Source of the DNA: an uncultured bacterium
GTDB taxonomy: Bacteria; Verrucomicrobiota; Kiritimatiellia; RFP12; UBA1067
DNA: 49,012 nt
Direction of reading: 5' to 3'
Assembly (NCBI GenBank): GCA_902763655.1
Contig: CACWSW010000005.1
Location: 1 to 49,012 of the forward strand
The notes beneath the pieces are model-generated. The model was given only the letters and a program-made list of their open reading frames with translations, had not been told where the DNA came from and did no database searches. Positions 1,573 through 25,577 of this stretch are shown here, one piece after another. Positions within the stretch are counted from its first letter, which is position 1, and every line of letters starts with the position of its first letter. Both the position numbers and the translations under genes were made by a program.

Positions 1573-1642
1573 GGGAGGGTCGCAACTTGTTGCGACCGCA
1601 TGGAACGCCGCCACTGACTGGGAACGCCGCCATCTTGGCGGC
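1573..1642 (+). repeat. Composite hairpin repeat: module A followed by module B
   Basis: Module A is leader GGGAGGG (1573-1579) with a perfect 9-bp stem GGTCGCAAC-tt-GTTGCGACC (1578-1597). Module B is leader TGACTGGGA (1615-1623) with hairpin GCCGCCATCTTGGCGGC (1626-1642). Both modules recur in the window, including inside manA. Confidence 0.8.
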
Positions 1643-1672
1643 GCATTATTTTAAAAATCCCGTTTCGCCCTA

Positions 1673-2986: not shown

Positions 2987-3060
2987 CCGCGCCGCGTATT
3001 GGCGGCGGGCCAATGGCTGGGCAGGCGCTAGGCCGCTTCGCGCTCCAACGCCTTGGCCAA

Positions 3061-3193
3061 GACACCCAGGACACCCAAGACACCCAGGACTACGCCTGCT
3101 TGGTGCGTATGCTCGCAAGCCATTTCCCGGCCACTGGCGCGCAAGCCTACCTTGCCACCGTTCTGGGTGTCTTGGATGTCCTGGGTGTCTTGG
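3061..3193. repeat. Inverted pair of 9-mer tandem repeats (GACACCCAR)
   Basis: The left arm is GACACCCAG, GACACCCAA, GACACCCAG, GAC (3061-3090). The right arm is its complement CTGGGTGTC, TTGGATGTC, CTGGGTGTC, TTGG (3163-3193). A 72-nt spacer separates them. A single-stranded copy could form a ~30-bp stem with slippable register. Confidence 0.8.
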
Positions 3194-7600: not shown

Positions 7601-9772
7601 ACAGTAGATGTAGCCACCAGTTCAAGTGGTATATGTCATGACGGAAGTAATATTCAAGGTAGAGAACAGGGCCGGCCTGATGAAAGTAGCGTTGTCGGGC
7701 GGATTGAGGGCAGGGTGCGTAACTACAAGGAGTCTTTTAAAAGGAGTAGTGTTCCGCCTCCGTTGCCGAGTCTTGATGATGACGAAGGTGAGGATGATGA
7801 CGAACTAACGCCGAAAGCCATTGACTTCGCAAAGCGCATCAAGAACCGCGAGGATCAACAAGCGAGAGAAATAGCGACTTTGGAAAAGGGGGAGGAGCTA
7901 CAGCGGGAGGCCTGCGAGGCTGAAAGATATAGCCTTGGATGGTTCAAGGTCATGCTCGAACTCGAGATGCTGGGTAAGGAGAAGGAGGCTTCTTCGCAAA
8001 GAGAGGTGTCGATCTGCTTCACAAAAATTGAACGCGAGCCGAATACGGAACGTACGTTTATCTTAAAACGGCCATCACGGAATATTCCTCAATGGCTTGA
8101 GGATGTTTCGGACATCCCGCTTGATATGGTTGTCGCGGGGAAGTCGATCCGCCCGATGATTGAGGTCATGAATGTGCAGTCCTTCAATCTGCGAGTAAAA
8201 CTTAAGGCCGATTCTAAGCTTGAGGGTGTTGATCTGCAAAAGCTCGACGAAGCGCGGGTGGTGACACAGCGCCCATTATTCTTGATGGAGGAACTGAAGA
8301 GGGGGCTGGCGTATCTTCCGCTGCCCGATGAGATGAATCTTCGTACGGCTCTGACGAACAATATCGAGTTCGTGTTCGGGCCGCCTGGAACGGGGAAAAC
8401 GACGTTCCTCGCCGAGAAGCGAATCATGCCGATGATGCGCGAAGCACGAGACTGGCGGGTTCTTGTTCTCGCGCCGACTAACAAGGCGGCGGATGTGCTG
8501 ACTAGTCGAATCATATCCAAAATGGAGGGGGACATTTCTTATCGCAAATGGCTGATACGATTTGGATCAACGCTTGACGAGCATTTGGACGCAACGGGTG
8601 TGTGTGTCGGGAAAGAGGTTGATCTAAGAAAGTATCCAAGGCATGTGGTGATTACAACGATAGCGCGATTCCCATACGACAGCTGTATCACCGGCAATTC
8701 TGCACCACAGAGACTTGTTGACTATGAGTGGGATTGTATCGTTGTCGACGAGGCCTCGATGATTCCTCTTGCAAATATCATCTATCCCCTTTATGCGAAG
8801 AAGAACGCGCGGTTTATTATTGCAGGAGACCCCTTTCAGATAGAACCGATTATCTCTTGCGAAGATTGGAAGGATGAGAATATCTACAAGATGGTAGGAC
8901 TGAAGAATTTTGCCGCCCCAAAGACGGAACCGCACGACTACCATGTTGAGAGGCTGACTACACAATACCGAAGCATCCCGTCCATCGGAACGATCTTTAG
9001 CCGATATCGTTATGGTGGAATACTTGCTCATGCCCGTTCGGAAAGCTCGCGTCGCCCGCTTGAGATTGAGGGGTTTCCTGAAATTAGGTCGCTTACGGTA
9101 CTGAAGTTCCCAGTCCGTTCATACGAAAGCTTTTATCGCCCGAAGCGTTTGGGGATAAACGGCGGTTCTTCCTATCAGATTTACTCGGCACTTTTTGCGT
9201 ATGAGTTTGTGATAGCTCTCGCACGAAAGATGAAACCTCAGACTGACAAGTTTCGGATTGGTGTGATTTCTCCTTACAGGGCTCAGGCAGACCTTGTACA
9301 ACGGCTTGTAGAGCGAGCCAAATTCCCTGGTTATGTTGAAATCTTGGCTGGAACGGTCCATGGGTTTCAGGGCGATGAATGTGAGATGATAGTAACACTC
9401 TTCAATCCGCCCCCTGGGATTTCCGCCAACAAGGGATCGTTCATCAACAAGAAGAACATTATCAATGTGGCTGTGAGCCGTGCGCGTGATTATCTTGTCA
9501 TTTTGATGCCTGATGATGATACCTATAATCTTGAGAATATGGTTGAAGTGCGTAAGGTCGAGGCGCTAATGAATCAAGACGCGGGACATTGTATCGTCCA
9601 TAGGACGAATGAGCTAGAAGAATGCATGTTTGGGAATCCCAATTTCATTGATGAGAATTCGTTTTCAACCGGACATCAGTCTGTGAACGTGTACGGTGCA
9701 CCCGAAAAGCGATATGAAGTGCGCGCAGATGAGACGGCTGTCGATATCCAGATTCACGAGGATACGCATTAA
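4682..9772 (+). CDS. Sacsin/Hsp90-type GHKL ATPase fused to SF1 (UPF1-like) helicase
   Basis: A 1696-residue cytoplasmic protein. The N-terminal GHKL ATPase has N-box ELIQNADDAGA (from residue 53), a sacsin-type FSHNG (79-81 HNG) and the lid motif GKYGMGF (126-132). A long alpha-rich middle follows, with an acidic patch at 1032-1043. The C-terminal superfamily 1B helicase has Walker A GPPGTGKTT (1233-1241), DEAS (1356-1359), GDPFQ (1382-1386), GTVHGFQGDE (1557-1566) and VAVSRAR (1596-1602), so all ATPase motifs look intact. Sacsin-type ATPases fused to helicases or nucleases are known from bacterial conflict systems. The exact two-gene arrangement with a ComEC-like MBL is not one of the standard named systems I recognise. 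Role inferred: the helicase senses or remodels nucleic acid, the GHKL module acts as an ATP-dependent switch and the MBL acts as effector. Composition is AT-rich relative to the window, suggesting transfer. Confidence 0.85.
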   Translation: MANQLTEKELAYFKALTEKRTRKADLIDEDPGLRNIIAQTIDMYSDQAHFVYELIQNADDAGATEAEFAVREDRLVFSHNGARRFSISNPDTETDDLRIARFGDINAITGSVTTKSTDNKEGNAIGKYGMGFLSVFNYTATPEIYDPHVAFKIERKMIPTLLDDDYPGRKPEETVFVFPFASKGDVRPAFESLARLTSLIFPTLFLNNLQTIIFNGGSEVGEYRKRILEAREFGDSVNITSCKRIEYMQANRSETTTTQIFLFSRKDKANHRYAIGFMLDENGHLIPANHKAFCFFPTKYETKLKFLIHAPFLLNPNREGIKDEDPHNIDMFDKLADLMYDSLLYMRDMRTSAGERLIDDSILNIIPIGGDQDDPYVFRVCCDRALKCFQTERILPTIDGYAVKENAYWPKTQEITSVFPDVTFQELYNAPDRHWVFCGKWNAPGLDFALRDFVSACTVECPSDVSILDRISSSFIKKQKLPWLSAFYKWIDGSDDRRKRAMELPIFLDHKGEAVAAFNSNGEHILFLPAVGSDAFTTIHEDICQDEYAMGLIARWKVETPSEDDRIGVIIDKISSCEREASDALFKEIVEYYARCPQEKKENLTKKLQGKVKLRGKGLRNNEIVYLSSSELYWPSDSTKEYFRAIMEFNGAFENVFVVDLAHYHELIEQALRRDFDRLLSKIGVMPEPSIRSGERTGRWEELENLLALDKVKLAEPSKSNREKQIFRYQYIHGASEFLERLLAEKNMEDKRVFSRILWSILKSHADKYFRELIKNKTISLESFLKVHSCFWKGGYGPNFLGGVHEYFNREIQREEFDSPQLFEFRGAKWIVLNDSTCVSPDSISVDRLPEEYVRRDDSDPLLKMLGIKPAEAPTPIRASENAVAIAMVEAEAREGLSENQKHTMKLGEEAERRGLTIEDLDECVRIMAQLKQQRREKVEQSLGRIHYVGKVEDGLKEVSVSPNELSSIEHPHTVDVATSSSGICHDGSNIQGREQGRPDESSVVGRIEGRVRNYKESFKRSSVPPPLPSLDDDEGEDDDELTPKAIDFAKRIKNREDQQAREIATLEKGEELQREACEAERYSLGWFKVMLELEMLGKEKEASSQREVSICFTKIEREPNTERTFILKRPSRNIPQWLEDVSDIPLDMVVAGKSIRPMIEVMNVQSFNLRVKLKADSKLEGVDLQKLDEARVVTQRPLFLMEELKRGLAYLPLPDEMNLRTALTNNIEFVFGPPGTGKTTFLAEKRIMPMMREARDWRVLVLAPTNKAADVLTSRIISKMEGDISYRKWLIRFGSTLDEHLDATGVCVGKEVDLRKYPRHVVITTIARFPYDSCITGNSAPQRLVDYEWDCIVVDEASMIPLANIIYPLYAKKNARFIIAGDPFQIEPIISCEDWKDENIYKMVGLKNFAAPKTEPHDYHVERLTTQYRSIPSIGTIFSRYRYGGILAHARSESSRRPLEIEGFPEIRSLTVLKFPVRSYESFYRPKRLGINGGSSYQIYSALFAYEFVIALARKMKPQTDKFRIGVISPYRAQADLVQRLVERAKFPGYVEILAGTVHGFQGDECEMIVTLFNPPPGISANKGSFINKKNIINVAVSRARDYLVILMPDDDTYNLENMVEVRKVEALMNQDAGHCIVHRTNELEECMFGNPNFIDENSFSTGHQSVNVYGAPEKRYEVRADETAVDIQIHEDTH

Positions 9773-10032: not shown

Positions 10033-10100
10033 CGGCGCGCGCGGGGCGCGCGCCCTACCAGAGCCGCCAAGATGACGGCTGTCGCAGTCAATTGCGGACG
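9984..10100 (+). repeat. 117-bp direct repeat, copy 1 (gene tail plus hairpins)
   Basis: It contains codons for MRFFKVVVELP and stop, a hairpin GGCGCGC/GCGCGCC, the phrase CCCTACCAGAGCCGCC, a module-B hairpin and CAGTCAATTGCGGACG. It matches 10885-11002 closely except at the first hairpin, where both arms differ. Confidence 0.8.
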
Positions 10101-10155
10101 CGCGGGAGCGCGTCCCTCCCGTTGCTGTTTTGGACGCAATAAATTGCGGCCTTCC
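10098..10155 (+). repeat. Module-A hairpins, inverted orientation
   Basis: GGACGCGC-ggga-GCGCGTCC followed by CTCCC (10097-10120), and GACGCAAT-aa-ATTGCGGCCTTCCC (10132-10155). These are reverse-orientation relatives of the GGGAGGG-hairpin module; the second matches the CGCAATaaATTGCG hairpins inside manA. Confidence 0.7.
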
Positions 10156-10944: not shown

Positions 10945-11002
10945 GGACAACGCGCCCTACCAGAGCCGCCAAGATGGCGGCTGTCCCAGTCAATTGCGGA
11001 CG
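10885..11002 (+). repeat. 117-bp direct repeat, copy 2
   Basis: It carries the same gene-tail codons (ending FFKVVVELP, stop 10931-10933), hairpin GGCGCGTTG-agga-CAACGCGCC and a module-B hairpin ending TGTCCCAGTCAATTG. It joins the cut toxin gene and overlaps the stop codon (10990-10992) of the next minus-strand gene. Confidence 0.8.
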
Positions 11003-12850
11003 TCCTTCCGGACGAGTTCGTGCGGGGCGAGGACGAGGACGGCCGTCTTGTCCGTGCCGTAGACGCGGTAGACGACGCGCTGTTCGCGGTCCGTCAGGTT
11101 CGCGGCCAGCAAGACGACCTTGCCGTCCGCCGTGCGCCACCAGTTGCCGCGCACGTCTGCCATCGTGGCGAACTTGCTCGGCGGCAGCTTGTAGGCGGGA
11201 TCGTAGAGGCTGTGGTGGGGGCGGCGGCCGAGCCATTCGTACGTCGTCTTGCCGACGGGTTCCGCGAAGCGCAGCTCGTCGAGCAGGTTGCCGTAGGCGA
11301 GCGCGTCGAGGTTCTTCTGGCGGAAGGCGCAGAGCTGGTTGAGGATCGCGCACTTGTCGGGCTTGTCGAGGAGGGTCGTTGTTCTCCGGGCTGCAGAAGT
11401 AGGTGGTGTAGCCGGAGTAGACGGCGTTGTGGAAGGGGATGTCCTTCGGGTCGCGCACGACCACCTGCAGGTAGCCGTCCACCATGTTGAGGCACATCTC
11501 GCCCGAACCTTCGGTGGTGATGAACGCGCCCTTGGCGTTCCACGCGCGGTGGATGGGCTCCATCATCTTCTCGTAGCCCTCGCGCCACCACTTGCCGCCG
11601 CCGAGCGGATGGCCGTGTGCGGGATCGTAGCAGGGGATGCCGGGCGCCGCGCCGATCTGGTCGATGAAGATCGACTTCGCCCCCAGTTCGTCGAGGATGC
11701 GTCCGGTGAAGGTCCGCACCACCTTCTGCCACGGCGCGCACGTGGGGCACATCACGGCGAGCGGCGCGGTGAGGCGTCCGTACTTCTCCACGTAGCGCGT
11801 GTCGTTCTGTCGTAGGACGGCGTAGGGTTCGGCGAGGATGAAGCCGCTCGTGGGGGCCGACCAGAGGCGTCCGTTCACGTAGGGCATCGGTTCCTGTCCC
11901 ATCGACTCGCAGTACGCGATGCATTCCTTCGTGCCGGGCTGTGCGGGGAAGTACTCGGGGTAGTTCACGTCGTGGCCCGAATGCTGCCAGAGATGCCAGT
12001 GGAGGCCGGTGGTGAAATTCGGGAAGATCGCCTTGGCGCGCGTGAGGACGTTGGACGCCACGTCGGGGTAGCCGTGGATGTTGATCCAGAGCGGGATCTC
12101 GCAGAGGCGGCGGGGATAGTCGGGGATGTCCTTGATGGGACCGCGCGCGGCCCATTTCTGCTGGAGCGCGTAGGCGCGGTAGCGCCGTGCGAAACTCCAC
12201 CAGTCGCCCTTGAGCGGCGCGAGCACCACGGGGTAGCGCGGGCCCTCGGCGGCCTTTCCGGGCACGCCGGCGTTTTCGACCGTCGTCTCGTAGCAGGCGT
12301 TCTGCTCGCCTTCAACGAGGAGGTTCTTGATGCGGGCCTCGGGGTCTTCGGGGACGAAGTAGAGTCCGTCCGTGCCGAGGAAGAACCCGGCAATCATCGG
12401 GCAGTAGCCGAGGTAGGCACGGCGGAAGGGCTTCGGCTGGGCCACGCGTTTCCTGAAGAGCTGCGCGCCATGGTCGTTCGATGGCAGCAGCACGTCGCCC
12501 GCGCCGTCGGGCGTCACGCGGTTGAGGCGCGGGAAAGCCGTCGTCATGAGCGTCCAGCGCGGCGAGCGGTTCGCGAACGCGAGTCGCCACGCCTGGGAGG
12601 TTCGCTCGCACGTTGCGGCCTCGTGCGCGCACGCCTTCACGCGCTTCGTGCGGTTCGTGCCGTCGGAGAACTCTGCCGTCCAAAGGTCGCCGCCGCCCGT
12701 CGCGAACGTGGCCGCGCCCACCGTGATCGACTGCAGCACGTTCTTTCCGTCGAACGTGACCGTCATCCGGTTCTGTCCGTCTGCCACGGCTGTCGCGAGC
12801 GCCGTGCAGGCGAGCGTTGTGAGGATTGCTTTCCATGTAGGTCGTTTCAT
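10990..12850 (-). pseudogene. DUF6259-type secreted glycosidase with a one-base frameshift
   Basis: The start ATG is at 12850, followed by a signal peptide (MKRPTWKAILTTLACTALAT). The barrel region contains FYLGTDGLYF-like strands, WINIHGYP, LHWHLWQHSGHDVNYPEYFP, IFIDQIG and a TEGSGE segment, as expected for DUF6259/GH-clan barrels. Near 11375-11385, after YFCSPENN, the frame breaks. Removing one base restores TLLDKPDKCAILNQLCAF and a normal beta-sandwich end (VVLLAANLTDREQRVVY) to a stop at 10990-10992, giving about 619 residues. Without the correction the frame runs on into unrelated sequence. Either a sequencing or assembly error or a real inactivation. The -10 box lies 7 nt before the ATG and no Shine-Dalgarno is seen. 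Divergent from the GH106 gene. Confidence 0.75.
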
Positions 12851-24386: not shown

Positions 24387-24473
24387 ACAGGATTACAGGA
24401 TTAAGAGGATTAACAGGATTAGATTTCAGAATCGAAAATCCTGTAAATCCTAAAAATCCTGTAATCCTGTTTT
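24387..24473 (+). repeat. Inverted pair of tandem repeats (ACAGGATT), terminator-like
   Basis: The left arm (24387-24421) repeats ACAGGATT and the right arm (24436-24473) repeats its complement AATCCTGT, ending in TTTT. A long AU-rich stem followed by U residues lies between the GH5-like gene and manA, so it may terminate transcription. Confidence 0.75.
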
Positions 24474-24539: not shown

Positions 24540-25577
24540 ATGATTGCTAAATTACTGCCCAACCGCGTGCGCCGCACCTATCTGGGTGGCGGCCGGATCG
24601 ATGCCTTTACGGGAGGGTCGCGCTTGTCGCGATTGTCAACGGGCGAGACGCCCGTTGTCCCAGTAGAGATGTCCATGCCCGAGGACTGGATGGCGTCTAC
24701 GACCACTGCGTTCAACGGCACGCTTGAGATCGAGGGCGAGGGGCTGGGTCGGCTCGAGGACGGGCGGCTCGTGAAGGACGTGGTCGGCACGTTGCCGATT
24801 CTCGTCAAGTTGTTGGACAGCGACGAGCGTCTGGTGATTCAGGCTCATCCCACCGTGCCGTGCGCGAAACGGCTCTTCAACTCGTCCGTGGGCAAGACGG
24901 AGTGCTGGTATTTCCTCGACGGCACGGCGCCCGACGCGTGCGTGTATCTCGGCTTCAAGCCTGGCATTACGCGGGAGGCGTGGGAGGAGGCCTTCTGGGG
25001 AGGGTCGCAGCTTGCTGCGACCGCGGCGGACGCAATAAATTGCGCCCCTCCCGAGTTGCTCACCTTCCTCCACCGCATTCCGGTGAAGACGGGGGACTTC
25101 GTGTTCGTGGACGGAGGCATGCCGCACGCGATCGGCGGTGGGTGCTTCATGATCGAGCTGCAGGAGCCGAGCGACCTCATGGTGGTGGCGGAGCGCGTCA
25201 CGCCGTCGGGTCGGCGCATCCCCGACGCGAAGATGCACGGCGGCGTCGGCTGGGAGAAGATGTTCGAGGTGTACGAGTACGAAGGGCGGACTTTTGAGGA
25301 GACGTGCGCAAGGTATGTGAAGCGCGCGGCGGGCGCAATAAATTGCGCCCCTCCCGTGACGCAAATCCTCGGGCCGGAATTGACGGACAAGTTTGAGATG
25401 TGGCGCGTGACGAACGGCGGGAGGGTCGCGCTCCAGCGCGACCGTTCTGTCGCCGTGGTCACGGACGGGACTGGCGAGGTGAACGGCCTTGCCGTGAAGA
25501 AGGGGGATAGGCTGGTAATAGCGAACGAGCGTCAGCTCGCCGTGTCCGGCGAAGTGACGCTCGTCGTCTGCGCGTGA
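24540..25577 (+). CDS. manA: Mannose-6-phosphate isomerase, class I, with in-frame palindromic inserts
   Basis: A 345-residue protein that interconverts mannose-6-phosphate and fructose-6-phosphate in the cytosol. Zinc-site motifs are present: Gln101 and His103 in VIQAHPT, Glu121 in GKTECWYFLD and His196 in GGMPHAIG, followed by FMIELQEPSDLMV. The sequence is interrupted at four places by repeat-derived peptides: GGSRLSRLSTGETPVVPV (about residues 25-42), GGSQLAATAADAINCAPP (about 154-171), GAINCAPP (about 265-272) and GGRVALQRD (about 294-302). Each is encoded by a perfect hairpin of the module A/B family, yet the frame stays open and the metal ligands are intact. GAGGGG lies 7-8 nt before the ATG. 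Convergent with the esterase gene, 6 bp apart. Mannose use fits the GH5-like enzyme upstream. Confidence 0.85.
   Translation: MIAKLLPNRVRRTYLGGGRIDAFTGGSRLSRLSTGETPVVPVEMSMPEDWMASTTTAFNGTLEIEGEGLGRLEDGRLVKDVVGTLPILVKLLDSDERLVIQAHPTVPCAKRLFNSSVGKTECWYFLDGTAPDACVYLGFKPGITREAWEEAFWGGSQLAATAADAINCAPPELLTFLHRIPVKTGDFVFVDGGMPHAIGGGCFMIELQEPSDLMVVAERVTPSGRRIPDAKMHGGVGWEKMFEVYEYEGRTFEETCARYVKRAAGAINCAPPVTQILGPELTDKFEMWRVTNGGRVALQRDRSVAVVTDGTGEVNGLAVKKGDRLVIANERQLAVSGEVTLVVCA
24611..24664 (+). repeat. Composite hairpin insert 1 inside manA
   Basis: GGGAGGG leader, stem TCGCG-cttgt-CGCGA, then stem CAACGGGCG-aga-CGCCCGTTG followed by TCCCAGT. The last piece is the reverse complement of the module-B leader. 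Confidence 0.8.
24998..25052 (+). repeat. Composite hairpin insert 2 inside manA
   Basis: It is bounded by GGGAGGG and CCCTCCC. Inside are stem GGTCGCAGC-tt-GCTGCGACC (25003-25022) and stem CGCAAT-aa-ATTGCG (25031-25044). The whole unit is itself an inverted arrangement of two module-A elements. Confidence 0.85.
25331..25355 (+). repeat. Hairpin insert 3 inside manA
   Basis: GGGCGCAAT-aa-ATTGCGCCC followed by CTCCC, an inverted module-A element with a 9-bp perfect stem. Confidence 0.8.
25419..25443 (+). repeat. Hairpin insert 4 inside manA
   Basis: GGGAGGG (25419-25425) overlapping stem GGTCGCGCT-cc-AGCGCGACC (25424-25443), a 9-bp perfect stem. Confidence 0.8.

Follow-up and report, generated by a model that had tools for sequence, protein, structure and literature searches.

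The gene at positions 24540..25577 (plus strand) of the window, i.e. of the whole 49,012-nucleotide stretch analysed here, encodes a class I phosphomannose-isomerase-like protein of 345 aa and contains hairpins with a GGGAGGG foot at 24611 (+), 24998 (+), 25052 (-) and 25355 (-). The initial annotation had read four sites of this gene as in-frame insertions of a mobile palindrome. Two questions therefore arise: whether the palindromes are inserts or repeat-like stretches of ancestral coding sequence, and, if they are inserts, what kind of element they represent and how coding sequences come to accommodate it.

The host frame is uninterrupted over its entire length in spite of the hairpins, as had been claimed, and the proposed metal ligands Q101, H103, E121 and H196 are indeed invariant in 19 aligned homologues. 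The assignment of the gene to mannose-6-phosphate isomerases is justified for the fold, as 1qwr was matched both by the protein in a phmmer search (E 4.5e-10) and by its AlphaFold model in a Foldseek search (E 6.9e-17), but the protein stays under the curated ManA cut-offs in both Pfam and NCBIfam (50 bits for TIGR00218), and a second, distant PMI homologue is encoded elsewhere in the same genome. Therefore, ManA-like is the safe name. Just upstream of the gene, positions 24387-24470 form an 88% inverted repeat (ACAGGATTACAGGATTAAGAGGATTAACAGGATT and its complement) composed of degenerate GGATTA-type repeats; a likewise repeat-built palindrome, a 34-nt inverted repeat of the CCAAGACACCCAGGACACC type with 94% complementarity, is located at 3057-3193.

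If the peptides were ancestral, repeat-less relatives would carry the same residues at these positions. Inserts were called from protein and codon alignments with named metagenome-assembled genomes (MAGs) of Kiritimatiellae and Verrucomicrobia. Site 1 is compound. Its first half is a GGGAGGG-type REP with a 5-bp stem (24611-24632, plus strand), which is missing from the homologues L042, L043, L046, L047, L048, L014 and L018, while L039 and L040 carry different content there. Its second half is an unrelated hairpin, CAACGGGCGAGACGCCCGTTGTCCCAG (24637-24663), i.e. a type C REP, CTGGGACAACGGGCGTCTCGCCCGTTG, on the minus strand, which encodes STGETPVVPV and matches the REP of the RAYT-UxaC fusions considered below. 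Site 2 (24998-25052, plus strand) is a head-to-head pair of GGGAGGG REPs (a REPIN) encoding GGSQLAATAADAINCAPP; it is empty in L041, whose protein is 90% identical, and in L042 and L047 sites 1 and 2 are both empty. Site 3 (25331-25355) is a single antisense GGGAGGG REP encoding GAINCAPP; the sister genome G003 holds two additional units here, one of them a 30-nt indel, and L042 retains an old insert decayed by substitution. The ManA sites of L039 and L040 hold other combinations of the same unit kind, always in frame.

Site 4 (25419-25443, plus strand), vice versa, is a look-alike hairpin in ancestral sequence: it encodes GGRVALQRD, and repeat-less relatives have GGRVALPRD or GGRIVLPRD, of equal length. 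The structural model divides the sites in the same way, with pLDDT below 50 at residues 9-15, 27-58, 157-169 (at site 2) and 266-269 (at site 3), stretches that include the three inserts, and site 4 lying in a strand (residues 294-297, block pLDDT about 89). Thus, the ManA-like gene has in-frame palindromic inserts at three orthologous sites, not four, and the view of a mobile palindrome tolerated in protein loops stands for sites 1-3, which vary or are absent in relatives and fall in low-confidence loops, and has to be dropped for site 4. The opposite view, that all four peptides are ancestral to the enzyme and merely repeat-like, holds for site 4, but sites 1-3 being absent or replaced in L041 (site 2) and in six of the other relatives named above (L042, L046, L047, L048, L014, L018) refutes it there, and its overall probability is negligible.

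The repeat unit measures 25 nt, has the layout GGGAGGG-N-CG-stem-CG-N'-CCGC, and occurs in many stem variants with base changes on both arms. Over whole genomes, the pattern had 360 matches in the genome of the window (G000, a gut member of the Kiritimatiellae), 420 in G003, 541 in G006, 189 in G004 and 411 in G023, a member of another genus, while most other genomes had few or none; a reversed control pattern yielded 0 matches in G000 and near zero across the genomes counted. This bears out the earlier remark that related intergenic hairpins occur elsewhere in the window (1573-1597, plus strand; 10096-10120, minus strand). The hairpin, gene-location and phase counts given for G000 cover stretches of 1.44 Mb. 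There, 111 hairpins follow GGGAGGG, as against 0-9 for ten control leaders, and 23 of the 45 neighbouring unit pairs are head-to-head (+-), the family occurring both as single units and as such pairs, 52-85 nt long. A tandem pattern, GGGAGGG..GGGAG, was rejected as the repeat unit.

A second foot, GGTAGGG, was found in 19 copies, compared to 98 with the GGGAGGG foot. As the layout of the unit is identical, the tag is a GGAG/GTAG pair, and the GGGAGGG foot carries a GGAG variant of GTAG, which is the canonical tag of classical REPs (PMC3733652, PMC2817692). In the 1.44 Mb, GGTAGGG REPs were observed outside genes in 16 cases and inside in 5, all five antisense, unlike GGGAGGG REPs, which are mainly intragenic; one sense frame of GGTAGGG contains a TAG stop, whereas GGGAGGG has no such stop. 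Repeat-family analysis of the window also yielded an intergenic type B REP, CTGGGAACGCCGCCATCTTGGCGGCG, at 1615-1646 (plus strand), with other copies at 2485-2516, 2534-2565, 2594-2625, 10063-10097 and 10965-11014.

Most units in G000 are situated in genes: 85 of 111, compared to 88% of random positions, with genes called on a MAG by a simple small dicodon model. The hosts include CarA, PyrG (two inserts), CoaE, carboxynorspermidine decarboxylase, a kinase, a sugar transporter and several glycosidases, and the inserts in PyrG, CarA, CoaE and NspC fall at gaps in the alignments with PDB homologues. PyrG occurs as a single copy, and its score of 748 bits exceeds the cut-off of 463; the insert-bearing enzyme is thus, judging by its sequence, probably functional. 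In G023, 31 of the 38 units are intergenic, hence the element need not be mainly intragenic.

In either orientation, the in-gene units tend to occupy one codon phase (xxG GGA GGG, or ..CCT CCC), observed for 71 of 85 units in G000, while 31.2 would be expected if the open frames were equally used (p about 9e-19 with units treated as independent, which neighbouring units are not). The same tendency was observed in G003 (36/41), and the length of in-gene head-to-head pairs is 1 mod 3 in 16 of 17 cases in G000 and in 9 of 9 in G003. Several causes were considered. Avoidance of stop codons was rejected, as it predicts 31 units rather than the observed 71, and so was the pre-existing phase of GGGAGGG, as ordinary in-gene copies (37/17/6) favour another phase; a short CGGG target would explain the bias only partly, the matching phase amounting to about 47%. 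The bias could stem from selection on the peptide or from an insertion target tied to the codon phase; taken together, the evidence supports selection that keeps the frame open, alongside a preference for one phase.

We then compared the content of the loops between species by flank searches in G003, G004 and G006, the orthologues being sought with one chimeric query of the insert-flanking segments. At site 2 of pyrG, the GGGAGGG units of G000 correspond to a AGTGCCTAGTGC palindrome in G003, whose flanks are 97-98% identical, and to a CACAAAGGACACAAAG palindrome in G006, the site being nearly empty in G004; in coaE, G003 has one extra unit (39 nt). Thus, elements come and go between close species, here in multiples of three, and unrelated palindromes replace each other at the same loops. 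No target-site duplication was seen at the compared sites, where most empty sites differ in flanking residues too, and no clean empty site with a target duplication was found among the compared relatives of G000. The same loops also accept in-frame inserts of another class, namely short direct repeats of degenerate sequence (GTCGAAAGTCGAAAG, GTGAAAGGTGAAAGG, AGTGCTTAGTGCC, CTCTGTGCCTCTGTG), seen in the ManA loops of L044, L045 and L049, in NspC of L157 (VNGERGKVKGEGGMVKGERGKVKGEG) and at pyrG site 2 of G003. These repeats often form large palindromes, occur between genes as well, and differ strongly between sister species.

RAYT genes (REP-associated tyrosine, Y1/HUH) of the family and order often carry their own REPs on the flanks, different in each lineage. 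The type C REP of ManA site 1 flanks RAYTs in the congeners G003 and G014, a hairpin very similar to the type B REP at 1615-1646 flanks the RAYT of the congener G013 (L265), and GGTAGGG units lie alongside the C45 RAYT of G000 (L141), downstream of it. For the GGGAGGG units, searches with PF01797, NF047646 and a RAYT profile built from two sequences yielded none flanked by them among the RAYTs whose surroundings were read; the nearest RAYTs are about 0.6-1.7 kb away or belong with other REP types, and the RAYT of the unit-rich G023 is flanked by a different hairpin. The C163 RAYT (8337-8864), in an open frame of 250 aa, is a candidate cognate of the GGGAGGG REPs. REPs were also seen in frame within the transposase itself, in L269 (peptide EFFNGQDARCPNARY) and L141 (1985-3649).

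In several relatives, a whole RAYT together with its REPs lies in frame within a host enzyme, fusion proteins being predicted from the reading frames. In G003 (L269) and G014 (L270), a single open reading frame of 746 or 768 aa contains a RAYT within a uronate isomerase (UxaC) paralogue, which lacks it in the congeners G004, G006 and G001. Type C REPs flank the RAYT and sit within these fusions, where they encode ATGETPVVPV and are read in all three phases. As these genomes have another UxaC gene elsewhere, complete in G014 and close to complete in G003, the copy hosting the RAYT may be dispensable. Further RAYTs are found within an FAD flavoprotein (G003, G001), within a type IIG restriction-modification enzyme (G040, G063), adjoining a helicase domain (G024), and in a PFL-like gene of G071 after the motif KPVEKMLA, a position occupied by a GGGAGGG unit in G000 and by another palindrome in G003. 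Pfam and NCBIfam matches back these fusions, the NCBIfam REP_Tyr_transpos match inside the UxaC fusion scoring 69 bits against a cut-off of 80. REP-encoded peptides are present on the flanks of the embedded RAYTs (L251:16558-18747, L086:172-2562, L269:637-2874, L270:460-2763, L271, L279, L275, L280). In one survey, Y1 proteins of excessive length were dropped, being taken for fusions or errors of annotation (PMC6006769).

Hence, the ManA inserts are very probably REP elements, that is, non-autonomous hairpin mobile DNA of the kind moved by RAYTs, in a REP/RAYT system living largely inside genes. We infer that a RAYT acting on single-stranded hairpins would insert the units, selection would remove those that disrupt the frame or put it in the wrong place, and inserts would survive in surface loops as the permissive places. 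Some of these loops have served unrelated REP families again and again and, in relatives, have taken up a whole RAYT together with its REPs. Alternatively, the GGGAGGG palindromes could be MITE-like or RPE-like elements moved by a non-RAYT enzyme and resemble REPs by convergence. In-frame insertion across unrelated genes is a hallmark of the Rickettsia RPEs (PMC10969869), and none of the unit-rich genomes examined yielded a RAYT with GGGAGGG flanks. However, the sister family with the GGTAGGG foot shares the layout and is located next to a RAYT, three distinct REP types that have RAYTs in congeners act alike in genes, and neither long terminal inverted repeats nor, at the compared sites, target duplications were seen, all of which makes convergence improbable. 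An assembly or binning artefact is still less credible, to the point of being very remote: G000 and its relatives, as all closely compared genomes, are MAGs, fragmented ones, and repeats are prone to misassembly, but inserts occur at the same sites in the independently named assemblies RUG11483, RUG572 and RGIG2765, with lengths in frame throughout, and breaks or chimaeras would not preserve the frame in genes genome-wide.

On the other hand, the inserts might be selected for the encoded peptides as useful linkers, with elements adapted so that both strands encode an innocuous peptide in one frame. In favour of this, one codon phase prevails in both orientations in G000, and likewise in G003, beyond the contribution of stops or of the ordinary GGGAGGG phase; the preferred peptides, GGSxxxAT and DAxxxxPP, are small or hydrophilic, and insert sites are re-used between species. 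At the same time, the content of a site changes freely between species with 97% identical flanks, so no particular peptide is kept, the type C REPs in UxaC occupy all three phases, and the old insert at site 3 of L042 has eroded by substitution; we consider this explanation doubtful. A broader version of the REP/RAYT reading, in which the system has settled in open reading frames, elements tending to enter or persist in one codon phase, a RAYT with its REPs may become a translated in-frame domain of an enzyme, and protein surface loops serve as reusable docking sites for unrelated REP families, is offered tentatively, as a possibility falling somewhat short of an even chance.

REPs, which rank with the most frequent repeats of bacteria, are extragenic by definition, whereas here they reside mainly in genes, in one phase, and in essential single-copy enzymes. 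They thereby amount to natural insertion experiments on known folds, in which one can test directly how loops arise in proteins, how insertions pass the filter of selection and whether REPs are still mobilised by RAYTs. Annotators should be aware that GGSQLVAT, DAQERVPP, TGETPVVPV, KVGQAFLPA and similar peptides in this group's proteins stem from mobile DNA. We found no open-access paper on REPs in Kiritimatiellae and no report of in-frame RAYTs in the open-access literature. Intragenic REPs as such are already known from Opitutus and Rickettsia, but their scale here, the single phase, the turnover of unrelated REP families in loops and the in-frame RAYTs look new, being undescribed in the papers searched.

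Among known systems, the most familiar in-frame inserts are the palindromic elements of Rickettsia, and for one enzyme bearing such an insert, Gmk, activity has been shown (PMC2229807). The parallel drawn with them in the initial annotation is apt as regards behaviour, i.e. in-frame insertion in many unrelated conserved genes with protein function tolerated (PMC10969869, PMC2229807), but does not extend to family identity. RPE-1 is about 100-150 bp long, R. conorii RPEs are CGTC-tagged (PMC3733652), and no transposase is associated with them; here, single units measure 25 nt and pairs 52-85 nt, the tag is GGAG/GTAG, and sister families have RAYTs. Thus, the GGAG/GTAG tag of the hairpins, their head-to-head pairing and the presence of sister REPs at the flanks of RAYTs assign the family to RAYT-associated REPs rather than to RPEs. 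A REP of Pseudomonas putida (TGTGGGAGCGGGC..GCCCGCGAA; PMC2817692, Table 1) similarly has a G-rich foot with GGGAG followed by a GC-rich perfect hairpin, a likeness compared at the foot only, and is found mainly between genes.

With the GTAG-tagged REPs and REPINs (PMC3733652; PMC2817692; PMC3116915) the family shares a short perfect palindrome in the range of 20-40 nt, a tagged 5' foot, dispersed high copy number, head-to-head dimers, and stem variants with changes on both arms. RAYTs with inverted REP flanks occur in the same group, for type C in G003 and G014 and for a close match of type B in G013, and none was found with flanks of GGGAGGG itself among the RAYTs read. Predominantly extragenic location, also usual for REPs, is a descriptive rather than a defining trait, since Di Nocera and colleagues documented intragenic REPs, most of them in Opitutus terrae and Rickettsia conorii, with dimers encoding 20-30 aa (PMC3733652); in O. 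terrae, a verrucomicrobium, REP dimers were likewise reported inside conserved genes. Unlike the GTAG REPs, the present family has GGGAGGG (GGAG) as its foot, with GGTAGGG as a minor form, three quarters of its units are intragenic, those in genes being read mostly in one codon phase, a given loop may be occupied by different REP families in sister species, and whole RAYTs occur in frame in enzymes.
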